Positions 10,322 to 61,255 of a stretch of 64,000 nt of DNA are shown here, piece by piece; position 1 is the stretch's first letter; every line of letters begins with the position of its first letter. Both the position numbers and the translations under genes were made by a program. Source of the stretch: Polytrichum commune (Eukaryota > Streptophyta > Polytrichopsida > Polytrichales > Polytrichaceae). The notes below the pieces were generated by a model, which saw nothing but the letters and a program-made list of their open reading frames with translations, searched no databases and was not told the DNA's origin. Location of the stretch: NCBI GenBank assembly GCA_950295325.1, contig OX485808.1, positions 17,320,527 through 17,384,526 on the forward strand, given 5' to 3'.

Positions 10322-10538
10322 CATTGATTATCCCAATTAGTGCGTGTTAGTATTCGGAGTTATGCAGTGTAATAACATCTTACTCAAGAGTTCAAATTTT
10401 ACTAACAAAAGTTCAATAAGTTGTTCTAACATTATAGAACATAAATGAAGTTGCTTGGTAAAAAATTACATTCTCATTAAATAGTTATAGCATTGTATAA
10501 CTCCGATCAATAACACACACTGATTGGGATAATCAATG
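10322..10538. mobile_element. TA-flanked MITE (family B), 217 bp
   Basis: The left end CATTGATTATCCCAATTAG is matched in inverted orientation by the right end CTGATTGGGATAATCAATG. The inverted match continues inward as 'GTGTTA', 'CGGAGTTATGCA' / 'TGTATAACTCCG' and 'AACTATTTAATGAGAATG'. TA dinucleotides flank both ends (10320-10321 and 10539-10540). No coding capacity. This fits a Tc1/mariner-type (Stowaway-like) non-autonomous element. Confidence 0.8.
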
Positions 10539-10589
10539 TAGCATTGCGGTGAAGTAGGTTTTCAGAGAATGCTAGGCACCAGAGCCCTA

Positions 10590-10970
10590 CATTGGGTGCC
10601 CATACCCATGCCCATGCCCATACCCACCCATGCCCATGGGTTTTGGGTGGGCATGGGTGCAATATTATTGTTCATGGGTGGGCATGGGTGCAATATTATT
10701 GTTCATGGGTGGGCATGGGTGGGCATGGCTGCGATATTATTGTTCATTGGTGGGCATGGGTTTGATATTATAATGGGTGGGCATGGGTGGGCATGGGTGG
10801 GGCACAATTACACAATCATACAAGACACATTACACAAATTTTGAATACATGGGCGCAATTTGAATAGCATGGGTGGGGCGTGGGTGGGGCGTGGGTGCGC
10901 ACATGTCATGCTATGGGTGGGCATGGGTGGGCATAGGTCATTGCTGATGGGTATGGTCTGGGTATGGGTG
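10590..10970. repeat. GGGTGGGCAT-rich minisatellite
   Basis: Repeated GGGTGGGCATGGGTG blocks separated by 'CAATATTATTGTTCAT', giving a longer unit of about 31 bp near 10640-10740. The start (10590-10640) is C-rich, CCCATGCCCATACCC, complementary to the G-rich remainder. That allows fold-back pairing or a G-quadruplex. The small open frame across it is repeat-driven. Confidence 0.85.
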
Positions 10971-11191
10971 CAAATAAAAAGGGAAATGTTGGGCTCTGCT
11001 AGGCACTGTTCATGTGGATTGGGCCTTTGAAATAAGTTGATTCCAGAATTTTGTTGTTCCTAGTGCTCAAAGAGGATTTTGTGCCCAATGCTATTTCTCC
11101 TGGGAAAGACCACATTTTCAAAATCAAGAAGAATACCACAAATAACATTACTCCGCTGATGAGCTGTGTTCTTGGGTCAAGCAACACACTA

Positions 11192-11397
11192 TTTTGTCTA
11201 ATTTGTGTGGGTTACCGTTTGGAGTTACGTGCTCCTATAAATTTTTATTCACACTATAGTTTTTACCAACTAAGATATATCATATTCTTTGGTGTGCATA
11301 TGAATTATTTATGTTATTTGGATAAAAACTGATGTTCTTGGTAAAAAGTTATAGCAACATGTAACTTCAAATGGTAACCCATACTAATTAAACAAAA
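11192..11397. mobile_element. TA-flanked MITE (family C), 206 bp
   Basis: Inverted ends begin TTTTGTCTAATTTGTGTGGG on the left. The right end reads inward as TTTTGTTTAATTAGTATGGG. Both continue with 'TTACC(G/A)TTTG(G/A)AGTTAC'. TA occurs on both sides. No ORF. Confidence 0.75.
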
Positions 11398-11403
11398 TAA
11401 TTT

Positions 11404-12205
11404 AGATTTGAGAATAAAGACTCTGGATGCTAGAATCCCACTACTTTAGATTGAATTTGAATTCATGGTAGTTGAACACAACTCATCAAGTGAGTAATGT
11501 TATGCAATGATGCCCAAATAAATAAATTCTTGAAGGTTGTGAGAAAGGTTTCGTGGAGGTTTGAGATTAATGACTATTACAGTACATGTGCACACTAAAT
11601 TTGTTGTAAGAAAGCCTAGATTGATATATATATATATATTGATTTATCTTGATTAGTGTATGTTGCTAATTGGAGTTCCACAGTGCAATAACGTGTTACT
11701 CAGAAGTTCACTAACAAAAGTTCAATAGGTTGTTTAGATAAAATAGAATATAAATTACTTTGCTTGGTAAGTATTACATTCTCATAAAATAGTTATAGCA
11801 CTGCGTAACTCACACTAATTGGGATAACTGTTGTAGTTGAATATCTATTCAATTGCGCCACATAATTACTCTGAATGTCCATTCTTGTTAGTTAAAGTTG
11901 TTTGAGAACTTGTTCAAGGGAAATTGTTGCCAAGGGAGAGTTCAAGAGCTTCATTTTTTTTAATAGTAATGTAGAAAAACGGAAAACAACGAAAATAAGT
12001 TGATTTGGCCAGAAAGAGTGGTTTGAAATTTGTGCAGAGATGGAGTAGAGGAAATGATGAGGTATGCAAGTTGTGTTAATGGGCCTAGCAATAGATTCGA
12101 GAATAAAGACTCTGGATGCTTGAATCCCACTACTTCATACTGAATTTGAAATCATGATTGCTAAACACAACTCATCAGCTGAGGAATGTTATGTTGAGCG
12201 TGTGA
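11404..12205. repeat. Pair of ~110-bp direct repeats, with MITE-like fold-back between
   Basis: 11404-11515 and 12093-12205 share 'GAGAATAAAGACTCTGGATGC', 'GAATCCCACTACTT', 'ACTCATCA' and 'GTTATG' in order. Between them, about 11632-11838, is a diverged relative of the 10322 MITE: 'TTGATTAGTGTATG' at the left, inverted as 'CACACTAATTGGGATAAC' at the right. No coding signal. Confidence 0.65.
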
Positions 12206-43339: not shown

Positions 43340-43347
43340 GAATTAAC
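43340..43347. repeat. Target-site duplication, left copy
   Basis: GAATTAAC, identical to the right copy. 8 bp is the hAT standard. Confidence 0.93.
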
Positions 43348-43460
43348 CAGGGTTGTCTATTGTGTCGTAACGGAGGGTAATCCCGACATAATGTCGTGCC
43401 GTCACGACACGTATCCGTCACGACATTATGCCGGATGCTGTCTTTATCCTGACGGACTTG
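43348..43460. repeat. Left terminal and subterminal repeats of the hAT element
   Basis: The TIR CAGGGTTGTCTAT is followed by several copies of GTCGTGACGG / CCGTCACGAC and near variants (TGTCGTAACGG, GTCGTGCCGTCACGACAC, CCGTCACGACATT). Clustered short motifs next to the ends are typical hAT transposase-binding regions; binding is inferred. Confidence 0.75.
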
Positions 43461-43579
43461 AATTTTACCGATTTTTTTGTGTAATTACATTAACCCATTT
43501 CTGACACGTAGGATTTACAATGTCCACGTGTGATGACATGTCAGCAAAGTAAAGGTGAAGTGGGGAAAAATTTACTAGA

Positions 43580-44333
43580 GCCCGTCCGCCCCCCCGTCCG
43601 CCTCCGTTCCCAACCCCCGTTCGCCCCCGTTCCCCCCCGTCCGCTCCCGTTCACAATCCCCGTTCGCCACCGTTCCCCCCCGTCCGCTCCCGTTCCCAAC
43701 CCCGTCCACTCCCCCGTCCGCCCCCCCCCCCCTCCCCCGTCCGCCCCCCCCCCCCCGTCCGTCCGCTCCCCCGTCCGCTCCCCCGTCCGCTCCCCCGTCC
43801 GCCCCCCCCCCGTCCGTCCGCTCCCCCGTCCGCCCCCCCCCCCGTCCGTCCGCTCCCCCGTCCGCTCCCCCGTCCGCCCCCCCCCCTCCCCCGTCCGCCC
43901 CCCCCCGTCCGTCCGCTCCCCCGTCCGCCCCCCCCCCCCTCCGTCCGCTTCCCCGTCCGCCCCCTCCCCCTCTCCCGTCCGCCCCCCCGTCCGCTCCCCC
44001 CCCGTCCGTCCGCTCCCCCGTCCGCTCCCCCCCGTCCGTCCGCTCGTCCGTCCGCTCCCCCCCCGTCCGTCCGCTCCCCCCCGTCCGTCCGCTCGTCCGT
44101 CCGCTCCCCCGTCCGCTCCCCCCCGTCCGCTCGTCCGTCCGCTCCCCCGTCCGCTCCCCCCCGTCCGCTCCCCCCCCCCCGTCCGTCCGCTCCCTCGTCC
44201 GCTCCCCCGTCCGCTCCCCCCCGTCCGCTCCCCCCCGTCCGCTCCCCCCCCCGTCCGTCCGCTCCCTCGTCCGCTCCCCCGTCCGCTCCCCCCCCCCCCC
44301 CCCCCCCCCCCCTTCCGTCCGCTCCCCCGTCCG
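43580..44333. repeat. CCGTCCGC-rich GC array, left, upstream of the transposase
   Basis: About 750 bp made almost only of C(4-12)GTCCG(T/C)CCGCTCC units with variable C runs. It starts about 230 bp inside the left end and stops about 10 bp before a TATA box. Both long open frames across it (Pro/Arg/Ser-rich on plus, Gly/Ala/Asp/Arg-rich on minus) are repeat artefacts. Confidence 0.95.
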
Positions 44334-44343
44334 ATTCGAATAC

Positions 44344-44350
44344 TATAAAT
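44344..44350 (+). promoter_or_regulatory. TATA box of the hAT transposase gene
   Basis: TATAAAT lies right after the GC array. The transposase ATG is 230 bp downstream, with a likely 5' UTR intron acceptor (TTGTATTTGCAG, ending 44565) between them. Confidence 0.65.
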
Positions 44351-44580
44351 TGAGGGTTCAAGGTGCCATTTTTGCCTCCACTGACATAGTGTGTCTCAAG
44401 TCTTTTGATTCTCCTTTGAGGAGTGAGGATTGAATGCGTGAGACCCGAATGCAGAGGATACTTTGTCCAATCTAGTGACTGTGAATTAGGGTTGCCCTTG
44501 TGGCACTCTTGAACAGGACCTAGTATGCGATCAAAGTTACTTGCTCTAACTTGTTTGTATTTGCAGGTTTTGTTGAAGTC

Positions 44581-47106
44581 ATGCCACGCCGAAATGATGC
44601 ATGGGATCATTGGTACGAGGATAAGGGGATGGTTCCCGGTAAATCACAAAGGCAGGTTAAATGTAGGTTTTGCCCGTTCGTCATATCTTACCGAGGAAAT
44701 AGAATGTTGGCCCACCTTGGTTATAGACCTCCTGTAGGGGGTGCTTGTGATGTTTCCACATGTAGGATGGTACCCCCGCATATTAGGGTCTTGTTTGAAC
44801 ATTGCGGAGGCATTGTGCCCTTACATGTAGGCATTGTAAATGAGGACTCTCCGGTGCCAGATATTGTACCTCTGGAGCCTATTATAGCAGACTCCGTAAT
44901 TAGTGAAACAGAGCCTTTGCTTATGTCCCAATCCACTCAACATTCTGATGTTGTGATATATGGCACACCTCCTCGTGAACTACGTCAACTCAACATAACG
45001 GAGGGGTTCAATGTGTCAACAAAACAACTCCTTGATAGAGCATGGGCAACGGTTTTTTATGAAGCTAACATTCTTTTCAACATTGTGAGACATCCTGCAT
45101 TTGTTCATGCTGTGCGTGAAACTGCCCGTCATCGAATGCCAGCCTACACACCACCATCGTACAATGCCATCCGTACGAAGTTGTTAACTGATAAAAAGGT
45201 TGACCTAGATAAGCAAGTGAAGGAGAAGATGGGGAATTCCGTTGAAAAATACGGTGTTACAATATGTTGTGATGGATGGGACAACGTGCAAAACCGACCT
45301 CTCCTAAACGTTCTCCAATGCGGCACAAAGGGAGACGTTTTCTTGGGTACCATTGATACCACAGGAAATCACAAGGATCATGTATACGTTGCTGTTCAAA
45401 TTCAACCATTTGTGGAAAAGGTTGGTCGACATAATGTGGTCCAGATTTGCATCGACAATGCCCCAGTTATGGCCTCCGCTGCTCGCGACTTGATTCAAGC
45501 AAATCCCGATCTATATTTTCAAGGATGTGCTGCGCATTGCCTAGATCTCCTCTTAGAAGATTGGGGGAAGGAGGAATGGGTGAAAAAGTTGGTAAAAAAG
45601 GCGCGCCATATTTGTGTTTTTATCAAAAACCATCATGCTTCTCAAGCTATATTCCGGAGGTTGTCACCAAATCTCTCACTCCGCCTACCTGTAGAGACCC
45701 GTTTTGCAACGAACTTCATCATGATAGATCGTCTTCTTCAAGTACGCAATGCTTTGGAAAGAATGGTGGTTGATGAGGATTGGCCTACTCTAATGCGTGA
45801 TATGAGGAGGAGATCTCGCACCTCTTACATGAAGGGCTCTGCTGTGCGAAGCTTTATACGTTCTGATGGATTCTGGAACACGTGCGAAAATTTCTTGTAT
45901 ATGGTGATCCCGGTTGTTAAAGCTCTTCGTGTATTTGATGGCAAGGCGCCTGCAATGGGAATGGCTTGGAGGGTCATGCATGATTTACAAACCCATATTT
46001 GTGGATTCAGTAAACCTCCATTTCGCTTAAGCCCTGAGCTTGCTGCAAATGCTATGCTAACGTTTCAAAATAGATGGAGGTTGATGTTGAATGATCTACA
46101 TTGGGCTGGAGCGATGTTAAATCCGCTTCTACGTGGTTGGGCCCCACTCCATGAGGATGAGAATTCGAGGACAATCCTAAATCGAGTTCTTCGCAGGCTT
46201 GCTCAAGATGAGGACACTTATGTCCAAATCCTCCACCAGTACCAAGATTTCCTTGAAAATCGAGGGCCTTTTGCTGATTCTACTGACCCGAGCGTGCATG
46301 CCGCACCTCTCCATGAATGGTGGGATGCAATGGGAGGTGGAGCTAAAGCCCTCCAAACAATAGCAAGACGTATCCTTGCACAAGTATGTTCCGCATCCGC
46401 ATGTGAACGCAATTGGAGCATGTACTCATATGTTCACAACAAGAGTCGCAATCGCTTGAAGCATAGTCGTGCCGAGGACCTCGTCTACATATATACCAAT
46501 AGTAGGCTCATTCGACATCGGAGGGGCCCAAGACCTGCACAATGGTACGAATTGAATGAGGTCCATTCTGACGATGACCTTGACGAAGAAGATGACAACG
46601 AAGATGACGTGGATCCAAATGATAGGGCCGGAAATGATGATGACAACAATGTTGATGACATCGACTTTGATTTGGATGACCTCGATTCCGAGAATCATGA
46701 TTCAAAAGATGAGGATGGCAATGGTAGTGATGGAAACCTTGGGGTGTTTGATTTTGATGAACCGGATGTCCCCCAATATAACGACGGAATGCATGACGAT
46801 CATGAGGGATCTATTGGAGGACCGATTTTTGAAACTCTCCACACTGGACAAGGGTTTCGTCCTGCCCATAATGTTGCTATGGGGGCAAGTGAGAATGTAG
46901 GAATTGAAGTAGATTCCTTGCAACCTCGGAGCGATTCTCTTTATTTTGGTGAAGGTGACAATGTACTACCCGCAAATGAGCCAACGCACGTTCAACAGGA
47001 TCCACTTCCAGCCCGAGTACATTCTGAATCCATGGACGCCTCCCTCATATCCAACCATCGTATAGAAGATCAAACGCCCAATGTTCCTGAAATACCTACA
47101 ACTTGA
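44581..47106 (+). CDS. hAT transposase (DUF659 / hAT dimerisation type)
   Basis: 841 residues from ATG 44581 to TGA. An upstream in-frame ATG (44551) is probably in the 5' intron, because TTGCAG just precedes 44566. Domains: a BED-like zinc finger (C28, C31, H45, with a second Cys cluster to C75); a DUF659 region (about 190-350) with GVTICCDGWDN (D231/D234) and QICIDNAPVMASA (D292); the CAAHCLDLLLEDW block (315-328); and a C-terminal hAT dimerisation region with SASACERNWS (E609), NRLKHSRAEDLVYIY. All DDE candidate residues are present. After about residue 660 comes a long Asp/Glu-rich tail. The enzyme cuts and pastes hAT elements in the nucleus. The same frame stays open beyond the TGA to 47778, so the original protein may have been longer. 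Confidence 0.92.
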   Translation: MPRRNDAWDHWYEDKGMVPGKSQRQVKCRFCPFVISYRGNRMLAHLGYRPPVGGACDVSTCRMVPPHIRVLFEHCGGIVPLHVGIVNEDSPVPDIVPLEPIIADSVISETEPLLMSQSTQHSDVVIYGTPPRELRQLNITEGFNVSTKQLLDRAWATVFYEANILFNIVRHPAFVHAVRETARHRMPAYTPPSYNAIRTKLLTDKKVDLDKQVKEKMGNSVEKYGVTICCDGWDNVQNRPLLNVLQCGTKGDVFLGTIDTTGNHKDHVYVAVQIQPFVEKVGRHNVVQICIDNAPVMASAARDLIQANPDLYFQGCAAHCLDLLLEDWGKEEWVKKLVKKARHICVFIKNHHASQAIFRRLSPNLSLRLPVETRFATNFIMIDRLLQVRNALERMVVDEDWPTLMRDMRRRSRTSYMKGSAVRSFIRSDGFWNTCENFLYMVIPVVKALRVFDGKAPAMGMAWRVMHDLQTHICGFSKPPFRLSPELAANAMLTFQNRWRLMLNDLHWAGAMLNPLLRGWAPLHEDENSRTILNRVLRRLAQDEDTYVQILHQYQDFLENRGPFADSTDPSVHAAPLHEWWDAMGGGAKALQTIARRILAQVCSASACERNWSMYSYVHNKSRNRLKHSRAEDLVYIYTNSRLIRHRRGPRPAQWYELNEVHSDDDLDEEDDNEDDVDPNDRAGNDDDNNVDDIDFDLDDLDSENHDSKDEDGNGSDGNLGVFDFDEPDVPQYNDGMHDDHEGSIGGPIFETLHTGQGFRPAHNVAMGASENVGIEVDSLQPRSDSLYFGEGDNVLPANEPTHVQQDPLPARVHSESMDASLISNHRIEDQTPNVPEIPTT

Positions 47107-47778
47107 TTCCGTGCTCTTCAAAGAACTGCATCAACCTCTACGGTGCAAGTGCATGCACAAGGTCAACGTCGTCCTCTCACTCGAAGTATTGCCAATACTT
47201 CTAGATTGGGTGTTTCACGTGCAACTGCGGTGGGTGCTACTTTGGTTGCTATACACAATGTTTCAAGAAATGTTACTACAGAGGCGCCACGTCGTCAATC
47301 TGTTCGTCGACATGTTGTTGAGAACATACCAATTGCAATTCCATCCGCATCAGTTTCACTTCCACACAGTCAATCCAATGGAACAGGTGGCCTTGGAGTT
47401 GGAGGCGGAAGTACAACGGGGGATGTTTTTATAGATGGAAGTAGAGATGAAGTGCACTCAAGTCGTGGTACGGGTGGAGGGCGTCAGAGAACTACGAGAG
47501 GTGTCAAACATACTAGGAAGAGGTATCAGGGAAGATCACTTCCGTTTACTGCTGAAGACTACAATGAAGATGAGGGTAGACCACATCTAGATGAAAATGG
47601 CATACAGGATGCAGAGGGCTCCCGGCCGACCAAGAAGATAATTTTCTCACAACGTGACCGAGAGTTGCATCTTCGGAGCGCGACTCCCCAAACGGATGAT
47701 GATTGCAGCACAGACGAGTCTGAAGAGGACCCAAGATGTGTCGAAGCAAATGATCCCACAGTACGGATTCGAACGTAA
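47107..47778 (+). pseudogene. C-terminal extension of the transposase frame after an in-frame TGA
   Basis: The transposase frame continues without frameshift for 224 codons after TGA 47104-47106. It has a coherent basic/polar composition (LTRSIANTSRLGVSRATAVG, RGVKHTRKRYQGRSLPFTAE, ending in an acidic TDESEEDPRC). The stop reads ACT-TGA-TTC. A single C-to-T change from CGA would explain it. Alternatives are a true shorter protein followed by an unrelated open frame, or readthrough. Full frame length would be 1065 residues. Confidence 0.6.
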
Positions 47779-48477
47779 TGGTTTTGCACAAATGTGGTAT
47801 TTCGGTGCTCCCACGTACTCCCATAATTTATTACTTACGTCAAAATTGATACAAGTTACAACCTTAGGGCCTTCGGTAAGACATTTAGACCACAAAGCGA
47901 ACGTTACCTTCGAAGTTGTAACATTTTATTATAGTAATAAAATTATTTATTGCATGTTTTTTAAAATTTTAAAAATACAATATGGTTGTCAACTTAGCAT
48001 TGCAATTAATCTCCAATAACATGTTATGCCTTTATTAATTACTATTTTGTATAATTCTTACTGTGAATGGAGTTTTATGTTTATTTATTGAGCTTCTTAA
48101 AAAATATGCTTTTATAAATATTGCAATCCCCTATTGCTCGATTGTACATGCTTCGTTGGTGACATCCTCTTTTTGAGGACCTTTCTATCCGTTTTATATA
48201 ATTATATCTTTATGTGGTATTCAATATTGACTATGTAGTCAATAGTACTTTTGGTTAGACTATCATATGAATTACTAATATTCAAGTAAGTTTTTAAAAG
48301 TTTCGAATAACATTAAAACATGTGGCATCCATATGCTATCTTTTACACGATCTTAGAAATGACAACTTGTCGGTAAATCCTCTTTATATTACATATACTT
48401 TGAACATGAAATATGTTCATTGTGTCCAAAGTCTTCATCCGTTCCTATACAACTTCCTAAACATGGTACAAAAATGC
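47779..48477. other. Intergenic spacer between convergent transposon genes
   Basis: AT-rich 700 bp between the ends of the transposase (+) and the RING gene (-). Probably both 3' UTRs; no gene seen. Confidence 0.5.
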
Positions 48478-50778
48478 CTAATCCGAATCTGAATCGAGGT
48501 CTATTCTAGCTGAAGTAGATCCTCGTCGTGCTCGTGATGATTCCCCCGCTTCCATGCTTCGCGTTGTTCCACGGGTGAGGTATGGACGACCAGGAGACAA
48601 TGGAACGGCATTACGTGGTCTAGGCCCACCATTTAGCCATTTCAATACCGCATCATCCGCAACTCTATGCAAGAGTGCATCAATTGAAGCCAACTGCAGC
48701 CTGTTCTTGTGGTACCCCACCTCTAACTGCAATTCATATCTCGGATCCCGTTCCGTAGGCATGTCATCTGCATCTTCTTCCAAATCATGCTCTGATACTG
48801 ATTCGAGACCTGCTGCATTGTATCAAGGAGGATGAATGCCTCTCTTTAATTGTCTGCTAGTTGAATCCCAATGTCATTCAAGAGTTTGGTACAAAAATCT
48901 TTTCAAGCCATGATCGGGGGGCTTGTTGGGATACAACTCGTCTGCAACATACAAAATTTGACGTGCATTCCGTGTCCAGTCGTCATCTCTGTTCTCGTGC
49001 CATAGCTCAACCTTGGCATAATTGTATAACCAACTTCATTCAACATTCTTCCCATCAAACTCTTGAAGATCGAAGGGAAAGTCCCATGGCTTTAATACCC
49101 AGTCGTTAGGCATGTAATCCCGAAGGCCAAATTGGAGGTACAAACGAGGGTGGAAGGGTGATCTGCAATGAGGACATTGGCGTTTCTTGATCATATTCCC
49201 TATTACACATTGTGGATGGAATTGGGCCCCACATGATCCAACTTGATAGCATCCCACTGGGCCAAATGGACATTGGCAAATCGCACATGCGGTTCCGTCG
49301 AAGACCATTGTATGTGGATTTGGCCATAACAACTCACCCCTCATGCGGAATGGATATTCATGCACTTGGGTCACATCCCAATGGTGATGTGGATCGGTCA
49401 CTTGACGCCAATCGATGCTCCCGCTTGGCATTGTCCACTCATTATCCCTATCCCACCTACTAGGGTACATCTGTTCATCTTCTGGCCATGACGTGAGCAT
49501 CATGTTCCGCATTCTCTAATTGCGGTTCCATTCTTTCTGGATGCTCTCAAACTCAACTTCAAATTGATGAGCCTTGGCCATAGCAAGCAATGTGCTTGTC
49601 CTCATATTTTTGCGCTCCACAATCGCATCCAACAAAAATTTCTTCAACCTTACATTCTGCTCCTCCAGTCCGCCAATCTTGGCTTCGTGATCAACAACCA
49701 CTTCATTGACCACTTGAAGTTGTTGTTGCATGTCCACCACCTCCTTTTGCAAAGCCTCCATCTTTCCTCGCATTACTTCATTCCTCATACATACCTCCAG
49801 AGTTTGTGACTTTGCAATCTTGGCCTCCTGTAAAGCTAAGTCCCTCTCTGCTTCCAAAGACTGAAGGTTAATTGGTGTACTACTTGAACTGCCAGCCTCC
49901 CCCATCGTAAGTGTTGCAACTCGATTTTCCAACTCGAAAATTATCGTTTTATACTCACGAATTTCCAACGCATGTTGCTTACGCAATTCCTCCATTCTAC
50001 TCTCCATCGGGTCCGCTCCATGTTCACCAAGGTTTACCTCGTCTAGGACCTCGTTAACTACGTCGTTGATCAGGTTGTTGACCTCGATATTTGCCTCCAT
50101 GCCCTCATCCATATGCTCAAACGCCTCCTCGATGGCCATCTCCACGTTATTGGCTGGTTGTTTATGATTACGTGGTTTTTTTGGTTCCCGACCCTCTGGA
50201 ATTGGGGCCCCAAGCTCGTCCACTAGTCGAGGATTCCTCCTGAACCACTCCGGAACGGGAGTGTATGGAATATCTGGAACTGTGCATTTAGTGAATGCAA
50301 TTCCAATACCCCCAAATTTCTGACCATGCAGGGTAGCCAAACTTGACCAATCCACCCTAACTCGCAACACGTGCTCCGCATACATCATACACGCCACCGA
50401 CTTTGGAATTGCACTCTTGGGCCATCTATTCAAATTGGAGATACTTCTAAGTATCGTTAGGAATCTCCATTTTGCCTCCACGTCATCAAGCTGCATATAA
50501 CTCGCACTGATGGCCTTGCAATGTCGCTCGTGACAAGGTCTTGGCCACAACCGATCAAAGTGAGGAAAGCCCACGTACTGCATTGCAGTCTTCACTGACC
50601 ACGGTTGTGGTACATTCTCCCAACCTGCCCTGGCTTTTTGGGTGTTGTCATCATAAACATCCCACTCCAACCCAGCGGCCTTGCGTACATGTGATCTGTG
50701 ACAACCTGATCCCCCACTTGCCATGTCTCCAGATCCTCCACTTGCCATGTCTGGAAATCCTTCACTTGTCATATCCAC
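48478..50778 (-). pseudogene. Transposon cargo: coiled-coil plus RING-like protein, one frame with four in-frame stops
   Basis: One minus-strand frame runs 766 codons from ATG 50778 with no frameshift. It is cut by TAG 49516-49518, TGA 49036-49038, TGA 48874-48876 and TGA 48823-48825. Part 1 (420 residues): a Met/Gly/Ser-rich start, a region with WENVPQPWSVKTAMQYVGFP and ILRSISNLNRWPKSAIPKS, then a long coiled coil (about 255-415: MEELRKQHALEIREYK, LEAERDLALQEAKIAK, LQKEVVDMQQQLQVV). Part 2 (from 49512): a RING-like finger CAICQC...GSCGAQFHPQC...CPHC, typical of E3 ubiquitin or SUMO ligases or structural zinc modules. Part 3: DELYPNKPPDHG, then an acidic and Ser-rich end. Function in the transposon is unknown. 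Splicing around the stops cannot be excluded, but I see no good donor/acceptor pairs. Confidence 0.7.
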
Positions 50779-51217
50779 CCAAATTGTACTTTATAATTCT
50801 AATCTAGAACTCTAATTTTTAAATTACTAATTGCACTTCATAATAGTGCTACAAAACATCCAAGCATATACTTCAAAATAGTGTTGCTGTGGAATTAGTT
50901 CAAAAATATCGTTAAAATTTAAAGTACAAAAATTCAGCACACCCTTCGAGCACCCCGCTACCAGCGCTCACGCAGAGGCCAGTTGACCGGGCGCGTCACA
51001 AGGAATATGCCAAAAAGGCAATATGCCACGTCACAAGGGAACGGGTCCACGTGGATCACACCCACAAACAGGTCAGTAAAAAAAATATAAAAGGATCCCA
51101 AAAAAGGGATCCTTAACTCCTCCGAGCAACCCGCTAAACCCCGCACTCTTTAGTAGAGGAGGGTCGTCCGGGCGCCCACAAGGAGTGGAGTGGGGTATGT
51201 AAGTGGTCCCCTCCACT

Positions 51218-51224
51218 TATATAC
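51218..51224 (-). promoter_or_regulatory. TATA box of the coiled-coil/RING gene
   Basis: TATATAA on the minus strand, within 10 bp of the edge of the middle GC array and 440 bp upstream of the ATG at 50778. Confidence 0.6.
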
Positions 51225-51230
51225 CCCTCC

Positions 51231-52030
51231 ATCCGCTCCCCGTTCCCTCCCGTCCGCGCCCATTCCCCTCCCAGTCCGCGCCCGTTCCCCTCCCAGTCCG
51301 CACCCGTTCCCCTACGTCCGCCCCCCGCGTTCCCCCCCACTCCGCACCCGTTCCCTACCAGTCCGCGCCCGTTCCCCTCCCAGTCCGCACCCGTTCCCCG
51401 CCAGTCCGCACCCGTTCCCTATGTCCGCCCCCCGCGCTCCCCCCCAGTCCGCACCCGTTCCCTCCCGTCCGCGCACGTTCCCCGACAGTCCGCACCCGTT
51501 CCCCTACGTCCGCGCCCCGCGTTCCCCCCAGTCCGCACCCGTTCCCCTACGTCCGCGCCCGCGTTCCCCTACGTCCGCACCCGCGTTCCCCCCATTCCGC
51601 ACCCGTTCCCTCCCGTCCGCGCCCGTTCCCCGCCAGTCCGCACCTGTTCCCCTACGTCCGCCCCCCGCGTTCCCCCGAGTCCGCGCCCGTTCCCTCCCGT
51701 CCGCGCCCGTTCCCCCCCAGTCCGCCCCCGTCCGCACCCGTTCCCAAACGTCCGCCCTCTCGTTCCCTACGTCCGCCCCCTCGTTCCCTACGTCCGCCCC
51801 CTCGTTCCCTACGTCCGCCCCCTCGTTCCCTACGTCCGCCCCCTCGTTCCCTACGTCCGCCCCCTCGTTCCCTACGTCCGCTCCCCTCAGTCCGCTCCCG
51901 TGTTCCCCCCGTCCGCTCCATGTTCCCTTACGTCCGCTCCAACGTTCCCATAAGTCCGCCCCATGTTCCCCTACGTCCGCTTTAGAGTTCCCCTGCGTCC
52001 GCTCTAGCGTTCTCATACGTCCGCTCCCGA
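51231..52030. repeat. CCGTCCGC/CCCGTTCCC GC array, middle
   Basis: Units of about 20-23 bp alternate CGTCCGC with CCCGTTCCC. Six nearly perfect 21-bp copies of TCGTTCCCTACGTCCGCC(CCC) lie at 51747-51890. Toward 52030 the units degrade into 'TACGTCCGCT..AGAGTTCCC' types. The array is upstream of the RING gene. Long Pro/Ser/Arg and Gly/Arg open frames on both strands are repeat artefacts. Confidence 0.95.
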
Positions 52031-52490
52031 GTTCCTTTGAATCTGCACTTTTTAACTTTTTTTGGAAGTTTGGACATATTCTCGGTTTTTTGGCTCTCAA
52101 AAATTCATATGAAGTCCAAAAAATGAGTTCTTGGTATCCATGGATAGGTAATGAAGTCCTCTACATGAATATGCAATAATATTTCTACTGCACATTCCCG
52201 CGTCCCCCCATCCGCACCCCATCTAACTTAGGCCCTTCGCAAATAATATATGTGACACTAAATATCATTACCGGTGTACTTATCCACACAAAACTAATGA
52301 AGGATCCCTCAAGCAACAAAGTAACCAATGTAGTATGATGACCAACAAATTATCACCCCTATGGAGACAACGATGTACAAGTAATAACTTTATTATTGCG
52401 ACGACAGTACAAATGCCCTTTATAAATCACATACATGAACAAACCATGCACGATTTAATATTCCACTTCATTCCGTCAACTTGACTTCCG
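52031..52490. other. Spacer in the hAT element
   Basis: AT-rich, no gene. It contains a 'GTGACACTAAATATCATTAC' segment that looks like a fragment of a CACTAAATAT-type MITE end near 52251. Confidence 0.4.
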
Positions 52491-53051
52491 TCATGGCAAC
52501 CTCGTAGATGCTTGTGGCTTCCGTCGAGGGTCCATTTTTGGGAGAGAATTCGGTCGAAGTAAATCAACATAGCTAATCGTTCGGTCTTTCATCCGTTCCT
52601 TCAATGATAGCCGATGAGGCGATAATCCTCTCCTCTTCTTACGAAAAGACAAAGTCCTTAAAGATTCTCCCGCTACCTTGATATCTTCAATGTCGATTGA
52701 AGTCTCCTCCACATCCACATCCCCGGGCTTCTCCAAAATATCCGCACATAAATCAATCAGATCATTTAGATATCCACCCACGCATTTTGTGTTGTCATTC
52801 TCCACCACATCGATCTCAAAGTTGTCCGCATATCGTCATTGGTCCTCCTCCGCCCCCATCCTCCAAGCTTGTGTAGATTGTAAGAAGGGAGTCATGACAT
52901 ACTCATCACGAAATCGATCCCTAGCACTTCTCTCATCTCTCTCACGCTCGGGTGATGGATTAAATGGAATATCGGGTTCACCTAAATTTTCTATCTCTTC
53001 ATCACATCCTAGACCCTCAAGCATGTCTCTCTTCTCTCCCATCCTATCCAT
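52491..53051 (-). pseudogene. Transposon cargo: small charged ORF with one in-frame TGA
   Basis: A single minus-strand frame of 186 codons from ATG 53051, interrupted only by TGA 52836-52838 (CAA-TGA-CGA). Before the stop it is acidic and Arg-rich (GEPDIPFNPSPERERDERSAR). After it come YLNDLIDLCADILEKPGDVD, a basic cluster FRKKRRGLSPHR and DLLRPNSLPKMDPRRK. No domain recognised. The basic patch suggests nuclear localisation. A CGA-to-TGA change would explain the stop. Confidence 0.5.
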
Positions 53052-53093
53052 GATACTCTACCCTCGTTATGTGTATGAGTCTAAATGCTCTAC

Positions 53094-53101
53094 TTATATA
53101 C
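53094..53101 (-). promoter_or_regulatory. TATA-like box of the small charged ORF
   Basis: The minus strand reads GTATATAAG about 45 bp before the ATG at 53051. It shares CTTATATAC (plus strand) with the TATA region at 51216. No GC array lies next to it. Confidence 0.4.
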
Positions 53102-53319
53102 TGAGCTCAAAGGACTTTATGAAATATACAATATTTGATGTAATCCAAGATGTAGAGGATCCAATTCTCGTTGGTAGGATAAAGACAACACAATAGGAAT
53201 AAAAAGAAAGTTGGTAAAGTCAAAAAGTTAGTTGCACTTTTTGAAAAAGTCCCCCGATACCCGCATCGGAAACCTCTTTGATACCTCTTTGAAGCTTCTA
53301 TATTTGATGGGTTGTCCTT

Positions 53320-53560
53320 TCATTCAACAATTCACATATTTGAGCTTCAACCTTAGTGGTTCGTATGGTTTCACAACCCACACGCATTCGAATGTCATAT
53401 TAATTCAACAAAGTACATATTTGTGCTTCAACCTTTGTGGTCCATATGGTTTCACAACACATATCAGGCATCTGAATGTCATTTTCATTCAACAAATCAC
53501 ATATTTGTGCTTCAACCTTAGTGGTTCGTATGGTTTCACAACCCACACGCATCCCCTTGC
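53320..53560. repeat. ~82-bp tandem repeat, three copies, in the hAT element
   Basis: Copies start near 53321, 53403 and 53486. Each has 'ATTCAACAA', 'CACATATTTG.GCTTCAACC', 'GTGGTTCGTATGGTTTCACA' and 'ACCCACACGCAT' or near variants. It sits about 270 bp upstream of the small charged ORF, where the other three genes have a GC array. Confidence 0.85.
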
Positions 53561-54420
53561 CCTTTCATCTCTACTTAGACATATAACTTATGGTATACAT
53601 TGGGGTTTTTAGAAGGGGTCATGAACGCACGTGATTCTCAAACATAATGTAGAGTGCATCCCCCGAGTTCCTATAGGCTTCATAAAGATATCTTACCAAC
53701 ACCTTACACAAATTAGAACATTCTAGAAAAGCAAATTAATATGGTCCACATTGATATTAAACTAGGGATTTGGTGTGGGCTTAAATTTAATGTGGCCCAC
53801 ATTAGTGATCATTTGGGGGGGGGGTGCACTATACTAAATCCGTATGAGTATATGTGAATGCACAAAAGAGGTATTGATTTGAACTTTGTTGTATTATGTA
53901 TTATTCTTCACAAAATTATAAGTTGTAGTTATGTAAATATATAGAATAATTTTTAAAAATATACAACATCTCTACTAACTTGTATGGTAGTGTCACTAGA
54001 TTTTATAGAATAAGGTTTATTTTATTTTAGTATTGGCTTAAACTGGTACATAAAAAGAACCAACCACAAGTGAACATACGATCTTACATATCATTTGATG
54101 GTAGACTTCAAAACAATAATTGCATTAGCTTTTATGACATGTATTACAAATCAGAGTATAGGAGGATTGAATGGAAACAGATGCTTAGGGACTTGGAAAA
54201 AGCCCCGGACGTGGCCTACCATGACATTCTTAACAAATTTGATTTGATTTGGGGGGTCAAAGGTCTTATTGTGACCCGTAGCAACTTAGTCCCTACTTGG
54301 AAGGATAGGCCTCAAATGAGCATTATTTCTAGATTTCCACTTAGGCTGCGCTGTTTCGGCTGGGTTGGTTGTATTTTGAATTTGAATTTTCAATTTGTGC
54401 CAAAAAAAGAATAAGACATG
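53561..54420. other. Spacer in the hAT element
   Basis: AT-rich. The open frame 54070-54414 has no recognisable domain. No gene supported. Confidence 0.4.
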
Positions 54421-55020
54421 TATTGCAAATATAAGGGCCGGTTCACAATATGGCCAAACTTTGAGAGGTTCAACATTTGGACCAATGAAAATGCTGAAAT
54501 GCCCAAAGTCCGTCCTCTCGGCCTTCACACTAGAGGCCGTAGTCCAAAGGACGTGGCCTCCAAAAGAGCTTAGGTGGCAACACTTTTAGGAAGTTATGGC
54601 GCCAAGAGTTCGGCCTCTCGAGCAAAGATTGGGTATAGCAAAATGCTCAACCCAAACTTCCGTCGAGAGGCCGAACTTTTTTTTCCATTAAAATAATCAA
54701 TCATTGACAAGATCTTGGCCGTTAGATTGGAGGGGTTATTTTGAGCAAGGAATAAAGTGGCATGCTCCTTTGAGTTTGGACTTTGGGATTGGCCTTTGGA
54801 GGCTTCACACTTTGGCCATCCAAGCCGAGAGGCCGTGGGAGTTCATGGCCAAAGGTTTGGACTTTGCGCTTGGCCTTTGGAGGCTTCACACTATGCCCAA
54901 CTAAGGCTACCCTTACTATATTTTATTGGCTATTTTCAGTTCATTTCTTTAGACTATCAACAAAGTTGGGCCACTCAATCGCACGGCCTCTCGACTTGGA
55001 CGGCCAAGAATATGTCCAAA
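54420..55020. repeat. Cluster of GGCCTCTCG / CGAGAGGCC motifs, possible nested element
   Basis: At least five copies of the motif in both orientations (near 54515, 54613, 54663, 54824 and 54984). They include a fold-back with arms GTTCGGCCTCTCG (54609-54621) and CGAGAGGCCGAAC (54663-54675), and two direct copies of 'TGGCCTTTGGAGGCTTCACACT' type near 54791 and 54879. This looks like the subterminal part of a small non-autonomous DNA element nested in the giant one. Ends and TSD are not resolved. Confidence 0.4.
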
Positions 55021-55757
55021 CTTCCAAAAAAAAGTGATTGTGAATTATATAAATATAAGCAATTGTGAAGATTCCTTGTGAGAGAATACCATTCATAAAA
55101 TTACACACCCAATCAAAACTTTATTCAATATCAAGTTTACAAATCACGAGTGAATATGAATCAATGTAACTGGATGTGTAGTTTTTATCATCCATATTAT
55201 GGTTGTATTTCATCCGTTAACGTTTATAGAGTCAGATTTACAAAGAAGGGAGTACCATTTTGTTAACTGTTAACACGTTTAACATTTATAGTGTGCAATA
55301 TGTGGGGAGTAGAAGAAAGATAACATTTAGAGATGTTTTGGATCACGTGTACAACCGATATAACTATTGCAATATTGTGCTCAACTTTAGTTAACTAGAT
55401 ATAACTATAGTTGACTACATTTTGTGGCATACTAAAATTAGAATAAATATAGGTAACTGCATTTTTGCAAGACATATCACAAACAACTATAGTTAACTTG
55501 AACTTAGCACATGGATGTGATAACAACGATGTGAAAGAAGGATGTGGCCTCACGAGAGGCGAGAACCTTGGTTAGCCTCCCATAGACTTCTTCTCGATTA
55601 TGGAGCAAAAGCCTCATGGAGTATGAACATTGCACTAAGATCCATAAACCTCATACAATATACAAGTTTTGTATGAAAAAATGATGGCTTTATTTACATC
55701 TCCAACGGTTACAAAATTGGTATGATTCAAAATTGCTGCAAAAAAAACAAAAAAAAT
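55021..55757. other. Spacer downstream of the kinase gene
   Basis: AT-rich; several 'TATAACTATAGTTAACT'-type short repeats near 55370-55500. No gene. Confidence 0.4.
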
Positions 55758-57674
55758 CTATTTTGCAGTGTCACGGAAGTACATTGTCGGGTTAACCATG
55801 TTGTATGGAGGGGACTTCAAAATGTTCACTACGTGTGTGATGGTTGACCTTTCCGCTGGATTGGTCTTCGTCAATGAATCCAATGCTAACTCAAACCGCA
55901 TATTCAAGCCATTTGGATCACTGTTTAGCTGAAACAAGGGAGAAGTCGCATCCCTGGCATAAATCTTCTTTGCCAAAGCACCCACTGAGAAGGACTCCGA
56001 GAGAAACGTGTGCCTATGTTTCCGAGCCATCCTCACCGGAGAGGTGGATGTTCCACGCTGCCCTCGTACATGGAATAATTCTGGACCAACACAGTTGTAT
56101 TTTGCTTTGTGCTTGTTCATCTCATCCACTGAATCTATTCCATAGTTGGAGGGTGCGTCTTCACCTCCCCAGGATGCCATGCCCCAATCACACACACCAA
56201 TGTAAACCGTGTTCTCACGGTCTTGTGAGAAATGCAGCATGACATTGTTGGGATTAAGGTCATTGTGCAACACGTCATGCTTGTGCACTACATTCACAAT
56301 GCACATTAGAGCCCATGCCAAATAAGCTCGATGCCTTCGATATACAACCAACCGTTTCCGTGTTTCAAAGTCTGCCCCAGGCATGTGAAGGATTGTACGC
56401 TCGTGGGTTGCCGGAACGCTGAAGTCATAGTTCCTCATGTTTTTCAAAGAGCCTCCATTCCACCACATCGAATAGGATTCGTATGTTTTCATATTGAGGT
56501 ATTGTAGCTTGATTACCCCAGGATGATCTACTGGACACGCCAATGCTTCAATTGAACGCTCCTTTCGATTCTCCAAACTATTCATGGCCTTCATGGTCTT
56601 CCCAGCCCACTCTATCCAGCTAGGGATGAATGATGCTCCATGAATTGCGACTCTCCGCACCACTCCGAAGGTCCCTTGGAAGATTTCCTTATCCAAGGCT
56701 TTGATCTCCGCATTCCTAGGCAACCATATGACACCCTGCCGGCCCTGAGTGGCAATGTTGTCTGCCATCTGCTTGTCAATAAAAATGGGAAGGTTGCGGG
56801 CGGATGTTCCTTTTGCTGCTATTACGCCTCTTTTCCAATTCTCTAGCTTCATATACAGCTCAGACTTCCTGCCACTACTACTTCCCTCGCTAGGATGCAC
56901 AGCATCATATGCCATTGTTGGATTGTAGATTGCTTCCACGGCTTGTTGTTCAATCGAGGTGCCCCAATCGCTCATGCCCCTAGCTTCTTCAAACTCCGCT
57001 CCAGCCGTGGCTTCCGTGAGAATAAGAATCAAATCGTTCCTCACCAAATCCAAACCCTTTGTACCATCATTGAGGTATTTTTTTTCCAAATAAACCATGC
57101 TGTTATTTCTAAACCACTCCAACAGCACGACCCTACAATGGTTTCGAGCCTCATCGATCCGCGGGTCGCGTTTGCCTCTATTTTTCCTTTTCCTCGATTG
57201 CAAACCTGAAACCCCGGACCCCTCCTCCGTCCCTTCCGAAATTGCTGGGCGTTTCTGTCCCCGTCTTTCACCATGCTCCGAACCCTGAGGTACATCACGT
57301 GCAGGGCTCTCCGGTCTTGATGTCCGCCGTGTCGGAGATCGTGGTGGCACGGACTCTCCATGAGTGGCTGCATTTATATCGGTGGAACTGCCTGAGCTTG
57401 GTCCCCTTCCTGTTCTCCCTCTATGTCCACTGTTTCCCCGACTCCCACGTGTTCCACGGCTTCCACGTGTTTGGTTGCCTCCTGAATGGCCAACTGCAAA
57501 GAACTCTTCGTCAAACCGAAAAGGATCTGGACGTGGGGGACGTGCTGCAGTTCTTCCACTTCCGGCCTCGCTTCCCGTACCCTCTCCAGTATGCGCAGGT
57601 GCAGTGCTTTGGAGCCAAACACGGTGCAGCCTCGTATCCTCGTCTTGGTAAAGAGCAATGTCCTCCCCCTCCAT
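55758..57674 (-). CDS. Transposon-carried protein-kinase-like protein, 638 residues
   Basis: Uninterrupted from ATG 57674 to TAG at 55758. Residues 1-175 are low-complexity and basic (Gly/Arg/Ser-rich, RKRKNRGKRD near 161-170, a likely nuclear signal). The kinase fold spans about 330-620: glycine loop FQGTFGVVRRV (332-342), candidate ATP lysine K359 in WAGKTMKAM, DHPGVIKL (383-390), catalytic loop VLHNDLNPNNVML (H470, D472, N477), metal-binding DWG (496-498, in place of DFG), and CVGPELF (528-534) for APE. Key Asp/Asn residues are kept, but the HRDLKP lysine is Asn (N474). Activity is plausible, not proven. It may phosphorylate the transposase or host factors, or be a captured host gene. It lies inside the TIRs and shares the element's array-plus-TATA promoter design, so I treat it as part of the transposon. 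Confidence 0.85.
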   Translation of the reverse strand: MEGEDIALYQDEDTRLHRVWLQSTAPAHTGEGTGSEAGSGRTAARPPRPDPFRFDEEFFAVGHSGGNQTRGSRGTRGSRGNSGHRGRTGRGPSSGSSTDINAATHGESVPPRSPTRRTSRPESPARDVPQGSEHGERRGQKRPAISEGTEEGSGVSGLQSRKRKNRGKRDPRIDEARNHCRVVLLEWFRNNSMVYLEKKYLNDGTKGLDLVRNDLILILTEATAGAEFEEARGMSDWGTSIEQQAVEAIYNPTMAYDAVHPSEGSSSGRKSELYMKLENWKRGVIAAKGTSARNLPIFIDKQMADNIATQGRQGVIWLPRNAEIKALDKEIFQGTFGVVRRVAIHGASFIPSWIEWAGKTMKAMNSLENRKERSIEALACPVDHPGVIKLQYLNMKTYESYSMWWNGGSLKNMRNYDFSVPATHERTILHMPGADFETRKRLVVYRRHRAYLAWALMCIVNVVHKHDVLHNDLNPNNVMLHFSQDRENTVYIGVCDWGMASWGGEDAPSNYGIDSVDEMNKHKAKYNCVGPELFHVRGQRGTSTSPVRMARKHRHTFLSESFSVGALAKKIYARDATSPLFQLNSDPNGLNMRFELALDSLTKTNPAERSTITHVVNILKSPPYNMVNPTMYFRDTAK

Positions 57675-57690
57675 CGTGAAAAAAACCGCG

Positions 57691-57770
57691 TGAGTGAGTG
57701 AATGTAGAAATGAGTGAGTGAATGTAGAAAGGAGTGAGTGAATGTAGAAATGAGTGCGTGAATCTGGAAA
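57691..57770. repeat. 20-bp minisatellite in the kinase 5' UTR
   Basis: Four copies of a 20-bp unit containing GAGTGAGTGAATGTAGAAA. They lie between the kinase start codon and its TATA box, so they would be transcribed in the leader. Confidence 0.85.
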
Positions 57771-57920
57771 AAAAATTGCGAGGGTTCCCCCACAATTTGC
57801 CCTGCCCTCCCAAACCCCCTGAGACCCGCGCGGTGCCGCTGTCCTTGGGACGGCAACAAGGTCTCGGGTCCCTTTGTGGTGGGAGGAGAGGAAAGTGAGG
57901 GAAACTAAAACCCCACGGCT

Positions 57921-57927
57921 TTATATA
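57921..57927 (-). promoter_or_regulatory. TATA box of the kinase-like gene
   Basis: The minus strand reads CCTATATAAAG. It is 250 bp before the ATG and about 65 bp from the right GC array. Confidence 0.65.
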
Positions 57928-57989
57928 GGCAAAGGGGAGCACAATCATTATGGGATCCCGGTCAGATTTGACATGGGGCACGAAAAGGA

Positions 57990-58560
57990 CGTATGGGGAA
58001 CGTGGGAACGCGGGGGCGGACGGGAGGGAACGTGGGGCGGACTGGAGGGGAACGCGGGCGGACGGGAGGGGAACGGAGCGCGGACGGGAGGGAACGGGCG
58101 GGAACATGGGGCGGACGGGAGGGAACGTGGGGCGGACGGGAGGGGAACGCGGGGCGGACGGGAGGGGAACGGGTGCGGACTGGGGGGAACGCGGTAGGGA
58201 ACGGGTGCGGACGTTAGGGAACGGGTGGGAACGTGAACGCACGGCGGGGGAACGTGGGGCGGACGGAGCCCTCCGCGTTCCCCCCGTCCGCCCCCGCGTT
58301 CCCCCGTCCGCTCCAGCGTTCTCCCCCCCGTTCCCAACCCCCTTCCGCCCCACCCCCACCCCCGTCCACTCCACCCCCTCCCCCGTCCGCTCCACCCCCC
58401 TCCGTCCGCCCCACCCCCGTCCGCTCCACCCCCCTCCCCCGTCCGCACCACCCCCCGTCCGTCCGCTCCACCCCCCTCCGCCGTCCGCACCACCCCCCTC
58501 CGCCGTCCGCACCACCCCCCTCTCCCGGCCGCCCCACCGTCCGCCCCCGGCCGCCCCACA
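57990..58560. repeat. CCGTCCGC GC array, right, with orientation switch
   Basis: 57990-58265 is G-rich on plus (GGCGGACGGGAGGGGAAC units). From about 58268 the complementary C-rich form (CGTTCCCCCCGTCCGCCC, then CCGTCCGCTCCACCCC) runs to 58560. The two halves are inverted and could fold together. The array is upstream of the kinase gene and ends about 275 bp inside the right TIR. Confidence 0.95.
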
Positions 58561-58754
58561 CCCTCCTTAGTCATATTTTTCTACTTTGATTTTAACAGAA
58601 CCCTAAACACAATGGCAAAATGGTTTACTTGGCAAGGGAAATATGCACATCCACGTCGGCGTTTTCTGCCACATAGGACGCCACCTTGGCAAGAAGGTAA
58701 GTATTTTACCCACCCTAGTCCATTCCCCCTATGTTGACCCTACGTGGACCCTAT

Positions 58755-58836
58755 TGTGTCGTGACGGAGGGGTCCATCACGACACGACCTGACATGACGG
58801 CACGACACCGTCATGACGTCGCGATAGACAACCCTG
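58755..58836. repeat. Right terminal and subterminal repeats of the hAT element
   Basis: Mirror of the left end: TGTCGTGACGGAGG, CATCACGACACGACC, GACGGCACGACACCGTCATG, then the inverted terminal repeat ending CAACCCTG. Confidence 0.75.
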
Positions 58837-58844
58837 GAATTAAC
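58837..58844. repeat. Target-site duplication, right copy
   Basis: GAATTAAC, immediately after the CAACCCTG end of the element. Confidence 0.93.
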
Positions 58845-59851: not shown

Positions 59852-59889
59852 TACCGTTTTGCTAAGTTCTTGGCTGGCTGGCTGGCTAA

Positions 59890-60266
59890 GGGCATCGCCA
59901 GTGGATCTAGGTAAAGCTCACTGCAAACCAAAACCTATCTTTTGACTGACCTAAAATTAGAAACTGAAATTACCATCATTAGAAGCACACCTAAATAAAC
60001 GTGAGATATTTTTCAAGAAAAAAGAATTGTAAAAATTTGACGTAGGTGAAATCCCTCATTGAAAACACCACATTTCACCTACGTCAAATTTCACCTACGT
60101 CAAATTTCACCTACGTCAAATTTTTACAATTCTTTTTTCTTGAAAAATATCTCACGTTTATTTAGGTGTGCTTCTAATGATGGTAATTTCAGTTTCTAAT
60201 TTTAGGTCAGTCAAAAGATAGGTTTTGGTTTGCAGTGAGCTTTACCTAGATCCACTGGCGATGCCC
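59890..60266. mobile_element. Fold-back MITE (PIF/Harbinger-like) with 163-bp perfect arms
   Basis: 59890-60052 is, as far as I can check by eye, the exact reverse complement of 60104-60266. Ends are GGGCATCGCCAGTGG; TAA flanks both sides (59887-59889 and 60267-60269), the usual 3-bp target for PIF/Harbinger. The 51-bp loop carries two extra copies of TTTCACCTACGTCAA. No ORF. A transcript would form a long near-perfect hairpin. Confidence 0.88.
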
Positions 60267-60269
60267 TAA

Positions 60270-61255
60270 GTTCTATGTAGTGTACAGTGAGCATGCACAA
60301 GCAATGTTGACTATTGAATACAACCTTTCGCTAATTATAATGCTCGCCCAGTGACTTTGGTGACCATTGTCACAACTATTGCAGTTCATGAAAGAGTGAT
60401 TCCCTCAAATTTAAGCAGTGAGTTTCTCCCTGGGCTCACCTGCGATAATATTCTTTCTAACTTTGGTGGTGGTGCCAATCGATTTGACTGCATCTGTGCC
60501 AAATAGTTGAGCCTGTTATGTCTCCTAATTACACTTGTTCAGGTCAGTGCCCGGGGAGAATTGTGGGCATAATCAGTGGAGGTCCTAGTGCTTCGGGAAG
60601 GGGAGGGTGTCTTCACATTGAAAGACGCCTTCAAGATCTGGTGCTTCCAAGATCTACTGGTTACATGTTGACATCGTTCGGGTTTTCTGTTATTAAAATT
60701 GAGGAATATTCTGCACCATTCCTGTAAACGGATCAGTGATTTTCCTGAGGTCTTGGATTGGAACCGGTTATTTCTTGACAAAACTCAACCGGTTCATCTG
60801 TACCAGTGTACCCAGGGTTCATTGGTTCAGGTTACTTGTGAGTCTCGCCCAGTTCCAGGCCCACCCCATTCAAGCACAGTCCTTCACCTGGTTGCATTTT
60901 ATATGAATTAATACTTAGACTAATTTCCAATTTTCTGTCAAGAAAAAAAGAGCATGATACTGTAGTCATGACTGTCAATGACGAATCATTCGAACGCTCA
61001 TCCCAGAATCTGGCTGATGGCATAATTTACTATGTAAGTTATGCAATGAAGTGGTGCAAGAGTTTCTTGAAATGGGCTTCAATGGCGCTGGCTTTTTGCC
61101 TTCTGTCTCAAAAAAAAGAAAAAGAAAAAAGAAAAAAGAAATGGGCTTCAGTATGGGTCGTGCTGCATCCAGCTATTTACAACAAACAGTGAGTTACTGT
61201 ACCTCGCTACCCTTTGGGTTGCCAGTGGTGTTAAAAATGCTCAAGTTGAATAGTG
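60270..61255. other. Intergenic, no gene recognised
   Basis: Locally higher GC around 60520-60660, with short open frames but no domain. An A-rich (AAAAAAG)n tract at 61111-61140 lies between two copies of 'AAATGGGCTTCA' (61071 and 61139), a short direct duplication. Confidence 0.35.

Follow-up and report, generated by a model that had tools for sequence, protein, structure and literature searches.

A decayed hAT transposon in Polytrichum commune belongs to a lineage with four recurrent genes

Elements of the hAT superfamily are usually regarded as single-gene transposons. Among the closest known systems is the Ac/Ds type, exemplified by maize Ac (PMC3260210). This type combines 8-bp target-site duplications (TSDs), short terminal inverted repeats (TIRs) and a hAT dimerisation domain, and it includes non-autonomous copies that keep only their ends. 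The lineage described here resembles it in all these respects. We came to it through one element in the window, by which we mean the whole 64,000-nucleotide stretch of Polytrichum commune DNA that was analysed (C6:17320527-17384526 of the 407.8-Mb genome). The psaB gene on the plastid contig C8 stands nearest to PDB 8htu, 6l35 and 7ksq, entries of Physcomitrium patens, which makes a moss the probable host. A sequence-only reading had placed a hAT element with matching ends and an 8-bp duplication there, and its limits proved exact where stated, with related empty sites found elsewhere in the genome. We read the element as one decayed copy of a cut-and-paste hAT transposon with several genes; in this copy the transposase, coiled-coil/RING-like (CC/RING) and ORF4 genes are interrupted (Table 1).

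Table 1. Features of the hAT element, in window positions.
Feature	Position	Strand	Remarks
hAT-superfamily element, family A copy	43348..58836	.	15,489 bp; ends and TSD
Left TSD GAATTAAC	43340..43347	.	single copy at related empty site C3:26165211-26165496
Right TSD GAATTAAC	58837..58844	.	identical to left TSD
Left TIR, L-type end continuing TGTGTCGT	43348..43360	+	end-pattern search
Right TIR, R-type end continuing CGCGACGT	58824..58836	-	end-pattern search
C-rich GTCCGC subterminal repeat array	43580..44335	.	limits approximate; seen in sequence
Internal GTCCGC-rich repeat array	51220..52030	.	limits approximate
Right subterminal GCGGAC/GTCCGC repeat array	57980..58560	.	limits approximate
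hAT transposase gene (DUF659, Dimer_Tnp_hAT)	44581..47775	+	in-frame stop 47104-47106 in window copy
CC/RING gene, ~777 aa in intact copies	48481..50778	-	stops in window copy; RING-like region 49162-49290
ORF4, 186-aa gene, no recognised family	52494..53051	-	one in-frame TGA in window copy
Kinase-like gene, 638 aa	55761..57674	-	open in window copy, the only open one of four

The TIRs are short and of the CAGGG type, the 13-bp CAGGGTTGTCTAT standing exactly at 43348-43360 (+) and 58824-58836 (-). With up to two mismatches it occurs at these two places only in the window, a count which is by itself within chance (shuffles average 1.62); the ends are nevertheless not fortuitous, because the same ends bound copies genome-wide. 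The flanks of the element belong to a dispersed repeat, of which the best other copy (C3:26165211-26165496) is 87% identical over the joined flanks, runs uninterrupted across the site and carries one GAATTAAC. Three more copies of the repeat that were read are also without an insert, and all these empty sites are paralogous repeats, not excision products. Inside the element GTCCGC reaches a density of 6.00 per kb, against 0.04 per kb in the remaining window. Two other repeats were seen in the window: an inverted repeat at 59886-60270, with 167-nt arms that are 99% complementary around a 51-nt loop, is possibly a foldback element, and at 4011-4508 a 166-nt unit stands three times in tandem, the other two units being 77% and 66% identical to the reference copy.

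Indeed, the ends recur throughout the genome: a 21-base end pattern, allowing up to two mismatches, gave 1158 matches (570 + 588), the pattern covering an L-type and an R-type end, and the backward control of the same pattern gave none. Within the first 100 places of the list, which are all on C1, neighbouring opposite ends no more than 40 kb apart form 30 pairs, 14 of them large (12.6-35.8 kb) and 16 small (0.7-2.1 kb). Where both ends were read, perfect 8-bp TSDs flank 10 of 12 large pairs (from the 14) and 13 of 13 small ones (from the 16); mismatched pairings of the 12 large pairs agree on average at 2.1 of 8 flanking positions. The two failures, C1:2330601-2366356 and C1:2520064-2532921, have flanking octamers that are crosswise reverse complements of each other, which fits an inversion of ~154 kb by recombination between the two inverted copies, so that 23 of the 25 pairs have a perfect 8-bp TSD and the remaining two fit inversion. 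Both ends of each of the 13 short copies are matched by the window element, in single matches of 28-981 bp that together cover 29-100% of a copy; these copies look like non-autonomous derivatives. A 1.1-kb non-autonomous family copy with a perfect TSD (C1:7131924-7133036) sits inside the kinase gene of the family B copy C1_7M. At C1:21.85-21.97 Mb and C2:35.84/35.93 Mb, patterns of ends and genes recur at regular spacing, which suggests segmental duplications that include whole element copies.

The transposase of the window copy had been called complete, which does not hold: its frame stops after 860 codons, against ~1084 open codons in most scored copies, and both of its Pfam domains precede the stop. 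These domains score well above their Pfam cut-offs (Dimer_Tnp_hAT ~40 bits against 21.4, DUF659 ~120 bits against 34.7), the dimerisation domain being a hallmark of the superfamily. For an N-terminal BED-type zinc finger, no zf-BED match came up with E as high as 1; by eye only, Cys and His residues seem to cluster around positions 28-60. There was no match to PDB sequences at E up to 0.1. Three more genes had been claimed, and three are indeed present, with the correction that the separate coiled-coil and RING reading frames are pieces of one gene; the further reading frame, ORF4, is a 186-aa gene with one stop in this copy. In intact copies the transposase has 1061 aa from its ATG, CC/RING 777, ORF4 186 and the kinase-like protein 635. 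All four frames are open in an 18.4-kb copy with matching ends and TSD (L003/L004). Frames without a stop in the aligned stretch are common, at 42 of 69 kinase rows (best 69 of 249 candidates scored; hand count) and 31 of 43 transposase rows (best 43 of 287 candidates scored).

Do these genes travel together? All 54 scored transposases have at least one extra gene within 18 kb. Within that distance the kinase was found for at least 34, CC/RING for at least 51, ORF4 for at least 45 and all three for at least 29; random placement gave 0.35 for the kinase. Every one of the 14 large pairs on C1, taken from the first 100 listed places, has three or four of the genes between its ends. The scored lists alone put four genes in nine pairs, three in four pairs (one of which owes its transposase to a dimer-domain match) and none in one. 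This last pair, C1:34345404-34360102, was considered as a counter-example and dismissed, as reading it reveals a transposase, a CC/RING gene and a kinase; no ORF4 match was found in this large copy. Outside the lineage, at least 1 of 140 hAT dimer-domain matches has the family kinase nearby, against at least 5 of 10 inside it, and the single outside match, C5:45440543, adjoins both a family kinase and a CC/RING gene and may itself be a family member beyond the matches listed. The outcome that the sequence-only reading had named as fatal to its view, copies enclosing only the transposase and a kinase and RING gene present as single-copy host genes, is contradicted, for the genes are multi-copy and lie between the same ends.

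No further gene common to the copies was seen in those read, seven of whose other long ORFs were searched. These ORFs belong to a gag retrotransposon within C7_11M, another kind of hAT transposase within C4_43M (joined positions 9788-12094; zf-C17orf113, DUF4371, Dimer_Tnp_hAT) and retroelement-type genes beside C1_46M and C4_42M. All of these look like separate insertions, and those of C4_43M and C7_11M, found in one copy each, are probably nested.

For eleven copies, nucleotide distances were taken separately for each gene, without a tree; those of the transposase, CC/RING and the kinase yield the same three groups, and those of ORF4 nearly so. Family A comprises the window copy, C1_32M, C3_44M, C2_69M and C1_16M; family B comprises C1_46M, C1_62M and C1_7M; and family C comprises C4_43M and C7_11M. 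Each family has all four genes. The copy C4_42M (C4:42.33 Mb) stands outside the groups. The 16 kb read there showed neither a kinase nor the ends of the element, and the side where a kinase might stand carries reverse-transcriptase ORFs. Between the families the transposase differs by 6.1-7.5%, the kinase by 10.2-12.7%, CC/RING by 13.4-16.6% and ORF4 by 8.8-14.6%. The ORF4 distances agree with families B and C; that of C1_16M, at 8.0-8.9% from the other A copies with a full ORF4, is hardly nearer to them than B is (8.8-10.2%), and may therefore have another history, whilst C2_69M could be compared over 137 of 558 sites only.

The support that the sequence-only reading had asked for was copies with the same TIRs, TSDs and gene set in the same order. 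Many copies with these ends, duplications and genes exist, but gene order differs between families. In family A it runs transposase> <CC/RING <ORF4 <kinase, with the kinase turned round in C1_16M, and in families B and C it runs kinase> <ORF4 transposase> <CC/RING. The B copies have the same two ends, and two of them read at both ends have TSDs matching at 8/8 (TGCCTCAT) and 7/8 positions; one end, of the same type, was read in each of the two C copies. The four-gene set has thus diverged together in three families while its order was rearranged.

Selection was gauged by NG86 dN/dS with bootstrap bounds, the wrong-frame readings of the same alignments serving as controls. Between families, the transposase has a dN/dS of 0.45-0.65, CC/RING one of 0.50-0.61 and the kinase one of 0.45-0.61, and no upper bound exceeds 0.92; read in the wrong frames, the three alignments yield 0.67-1.17, 0.71-1.06 and 0.78-1.46, respectively, mostly near 1. 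Some wrong-frame values lie near the right-frame ones in the comparisons with family C, which makes A versus B the clearest case. There, an excess of third-position changes is found for the transposase (p 0.002-0.004), CC/RING (0.011-0.028) and the kinase (0.002-0.025). Between A and C it is found for the kinase (p 0.027, 0.036) and one CC/RING copy (0.040), and is absent for the transposase (p 0.29, 0.38) and for CC/RING in C4_43M (p 0.18). All 10 gaps in the kinase between families are multiples of three. In CC/RING, five copies from B and C were compared and show 6-14 gaps apiece that break the frame, which indicates that this gene is partly decayed in the B and C copies that were read. Within family A, dN/dS for the most distant member, C1_16M, is 0.45-0.54 in the same three genes with bounds below 1; changes among the closer copies (C3_44M, C2_69M, window) are too few, and 1 falls inside most of the intervals. 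ORF4 differs, in that its between-family dN/dS is 0.73-1.41 with all intervals including 1, and its third-position excess is never significant in the family comparisons. Purifying selection maintains the kinase-like and CC/RING-like genes, at a strength similar to that seen for the transposase. Pack-type cargo is not maintained by selection, and on that count the kinase and CC/RING do not behave as such cargo, ORF4 being compatible with neutrality.

What these proteins resemble can be said with varying precision. A kinase gene had been proposed, and its frame is indeed open in the window copy; its match to Pfam Pkinase (27-28 bits) falls below the cut-off of 31.7, has a best E of 1.3e-6 and, with E up to 0.01 allowed, is found in 7 of 8 members. 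Against PDB it gives weak MAP kinase matches only (E 0.0056-0.0099). By eye, candidate motifs stand in its alignment (A2), in the copies reaching that far: a glycine loop, a candidate for the lysine, HNDLNPNN, and DWG in place of DFG. The family A protein has a basic KRKNRGKR stretch that looks like a nuclear signal. All of the 69 scored kinase matches are at least 81% identical, and there was no close host copy among them (best 69 of 249 candidates). The CC/RING protein reaches 24-25 bits (24.7-24.8) against zf-RING_2, below the cut-off of 27.3, and its RING-like region matches RNF38 at E 1.1e-5. Its ligands, read by eye in alignment A1, are spaced C-x2-C-x8-C-x5-C-x4-H-x2-C-x10-C-x2-C and look C4HC3-like, a spacing which we take to differ from that of RING-H2. 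A genome search with the RING domain gave at least 46 matches at E up to 1e-6 (best 150 of 329 candidates scored). AlphaFold2 models of CC/RING (A1) and the kinase (A2) have a mean pLDDT of 32.7 each, and the long helices of CC/RING appear only in this low-confidence model.

ORF4 has no Pfam match at E up to 1, and a relative about 50% identical to it is part of another dispersed repeat, 7.2 kb long (C7:7653536, C4:9259009). That repeat has long tandem arrays and a 754-aa ORF, with a SWIM-like motif seen by eye only in the neighbouring ORF, and its large ORFs gave no Pfam match above cut-off. Among the matches listed, 28 such relatives stand at 48-54% identity, 17 of them on C4. Against the relative in C7_7M, to which it is 51% identical over 171 codons, ORF4 has a dN of 0.34 and a dS of 0.70, so that it is probably a genuine gene whose constraint is weaker or varies. 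It seems to be a helper gene common to two transposon types.

Two views of the extra genes were on offer in the sequence-only reading, namely a multi-gene lineage with its own accessory functions and the capture of host genes. We favour accessory functions over recent capture, because three diverged families have the set in common and purifying selection acts on the kinase and CC/RING between them. That the set is resident in this hAT lineage and not stray cargo is very probable, and an old capture of the extra genes from a host is possible. Overall, the best explanation, which we consider reasonably probable, is a decayed multi-gene hAT whose resident genes are accessory factors. The extra genes could instead be passengers, taken from the host by Pack-type capture and multiplied with the hAT without any role in it: gene capture by DNA transposons is well known, kinases and RING proteins are of types found in hosts, one gene is absent from some copies (C1:34345404-34360102 without ORF4, perhaps C4_42M without the kinase), and ORF4 has no detectable constraint between families. 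However, the set is present in three families at distances of 6.1-7.5% for the transposase and 10.2-16.6% for the kinase and CC/RING, and no close host copy of the kinase turned up among the best 69 of 249 candidates; dN/dS of 0.45-0.61 for these two genes, with upper bounds below 1, further weakens the idea of passengers, which we regard as unlikely.

Perhaps the genes are maintained for some end other than transposition, whether directed at the host or selfish, such as interference with immunity or a killer-rescue pair. A kinase and a ubiquitin-ligase-like gene could conceivably act on host signalling, yet nothing specific supports this and copies with broken genes persist, a stop being present in 27 of the 69 scored kinase rows (best 69 of 249 candidates); we think it decidedly unlikely. 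The presence of several genes in one element, the high divergence of the kinase (best PDB E 0.0056) and the modular gene order would suit an ancient large mobile element or virus-like replicon that gained hAT ends and a transposase, with the kinase, RING-like gene and ORF4 as its older core; against this, the copies read showed no further common gene (seven ORFs searched), and the ends, TSDs and short copies are those of an ordinary hAT, which leaves such an origin very improbable. Real nested insertions do occur, as seen in the 30-36 kb pairs, the short copy within C1_7M and the transposon genes of C4_43M and C7_11M. As the source of the gene set, however, unrelated insertions that came by chance to lie nested or adjacent between two hAT ends are rejected, since the same four-gene content recurs between TSD-flanked ends at many independent places, and, by the family kinases listed, only 1 of 140 outside dimer-domain matches lies near one; we give this reading almost no weight.

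How, then, might a multi-gene hAT with accessory factors function? We infer that the transposase would recognise the ends together with the GTCCGC-rich subterminal arrays and move the element, and that the other three proteins would act in trans, raising or regulating transposition or blunting host silencing. The kinase might phosphorylate the transposase or chromatin proteins, the CC/RING-like protein might serve as a ubiquitin ligase or scaffold, and ORF4 could be a more general transposon helper, as a different repeat family also has it. Judging from the sequences, a role of the extra genes in transposition or anti-silencing stands at about even chances, and any single molecular target of their proteins would be less probable than that. 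We offer more tentatively the picture of a hAT with its own signalling kit, in which a divergent kinase and a coiled-coil protein resembling a ubiquitin ligase, together with a helper that another transposon family has as well, would control transposition and overcome silencing. A lineage whose kinase-like and RING-like genes are selected across several families, in a plant genome with many very similar copies, provides a system for asking whether DNA transposons run their own post-translational regulation, and the occurrence of ORF4 in another repeat family suggests an exchange of helper genes between types of transposon.

No equivalent gene set was found in the literature searched on hAT elements with extra genes and on moss genomes; the hAT class is known, and the four-gene set appears undescribed in the literature so searched. 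Several known systems nonetheless share one aspect or another with this lineage. Starships and Teratorn likewise hold many genes between transposon ends, but they have other transposase or recombinase types, are far larger and are not hAT elements. Pack-MULEs and gene-capturing Helitrons also place cellular-type genes inside a DNA transposon, their cargo usually being fragments private to a copy or subfamily, whereas here full-length genes extend across families. The autonomous MuDR/Mutator element, with mudrA and mudrB, offers the parallel of a transposase gene and a convergent accessory gene; it differs in its transposase, TSD and ends, and here there are three accessory genes, with kinase-like and RING-like matches among them. 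Finally, unlike maize Ac, which is 4.6 kb long, the large paired copies span 12.6-35.8 kb and have four genes, and the element combines a DUF659-type transposase with long C-rich arrays.
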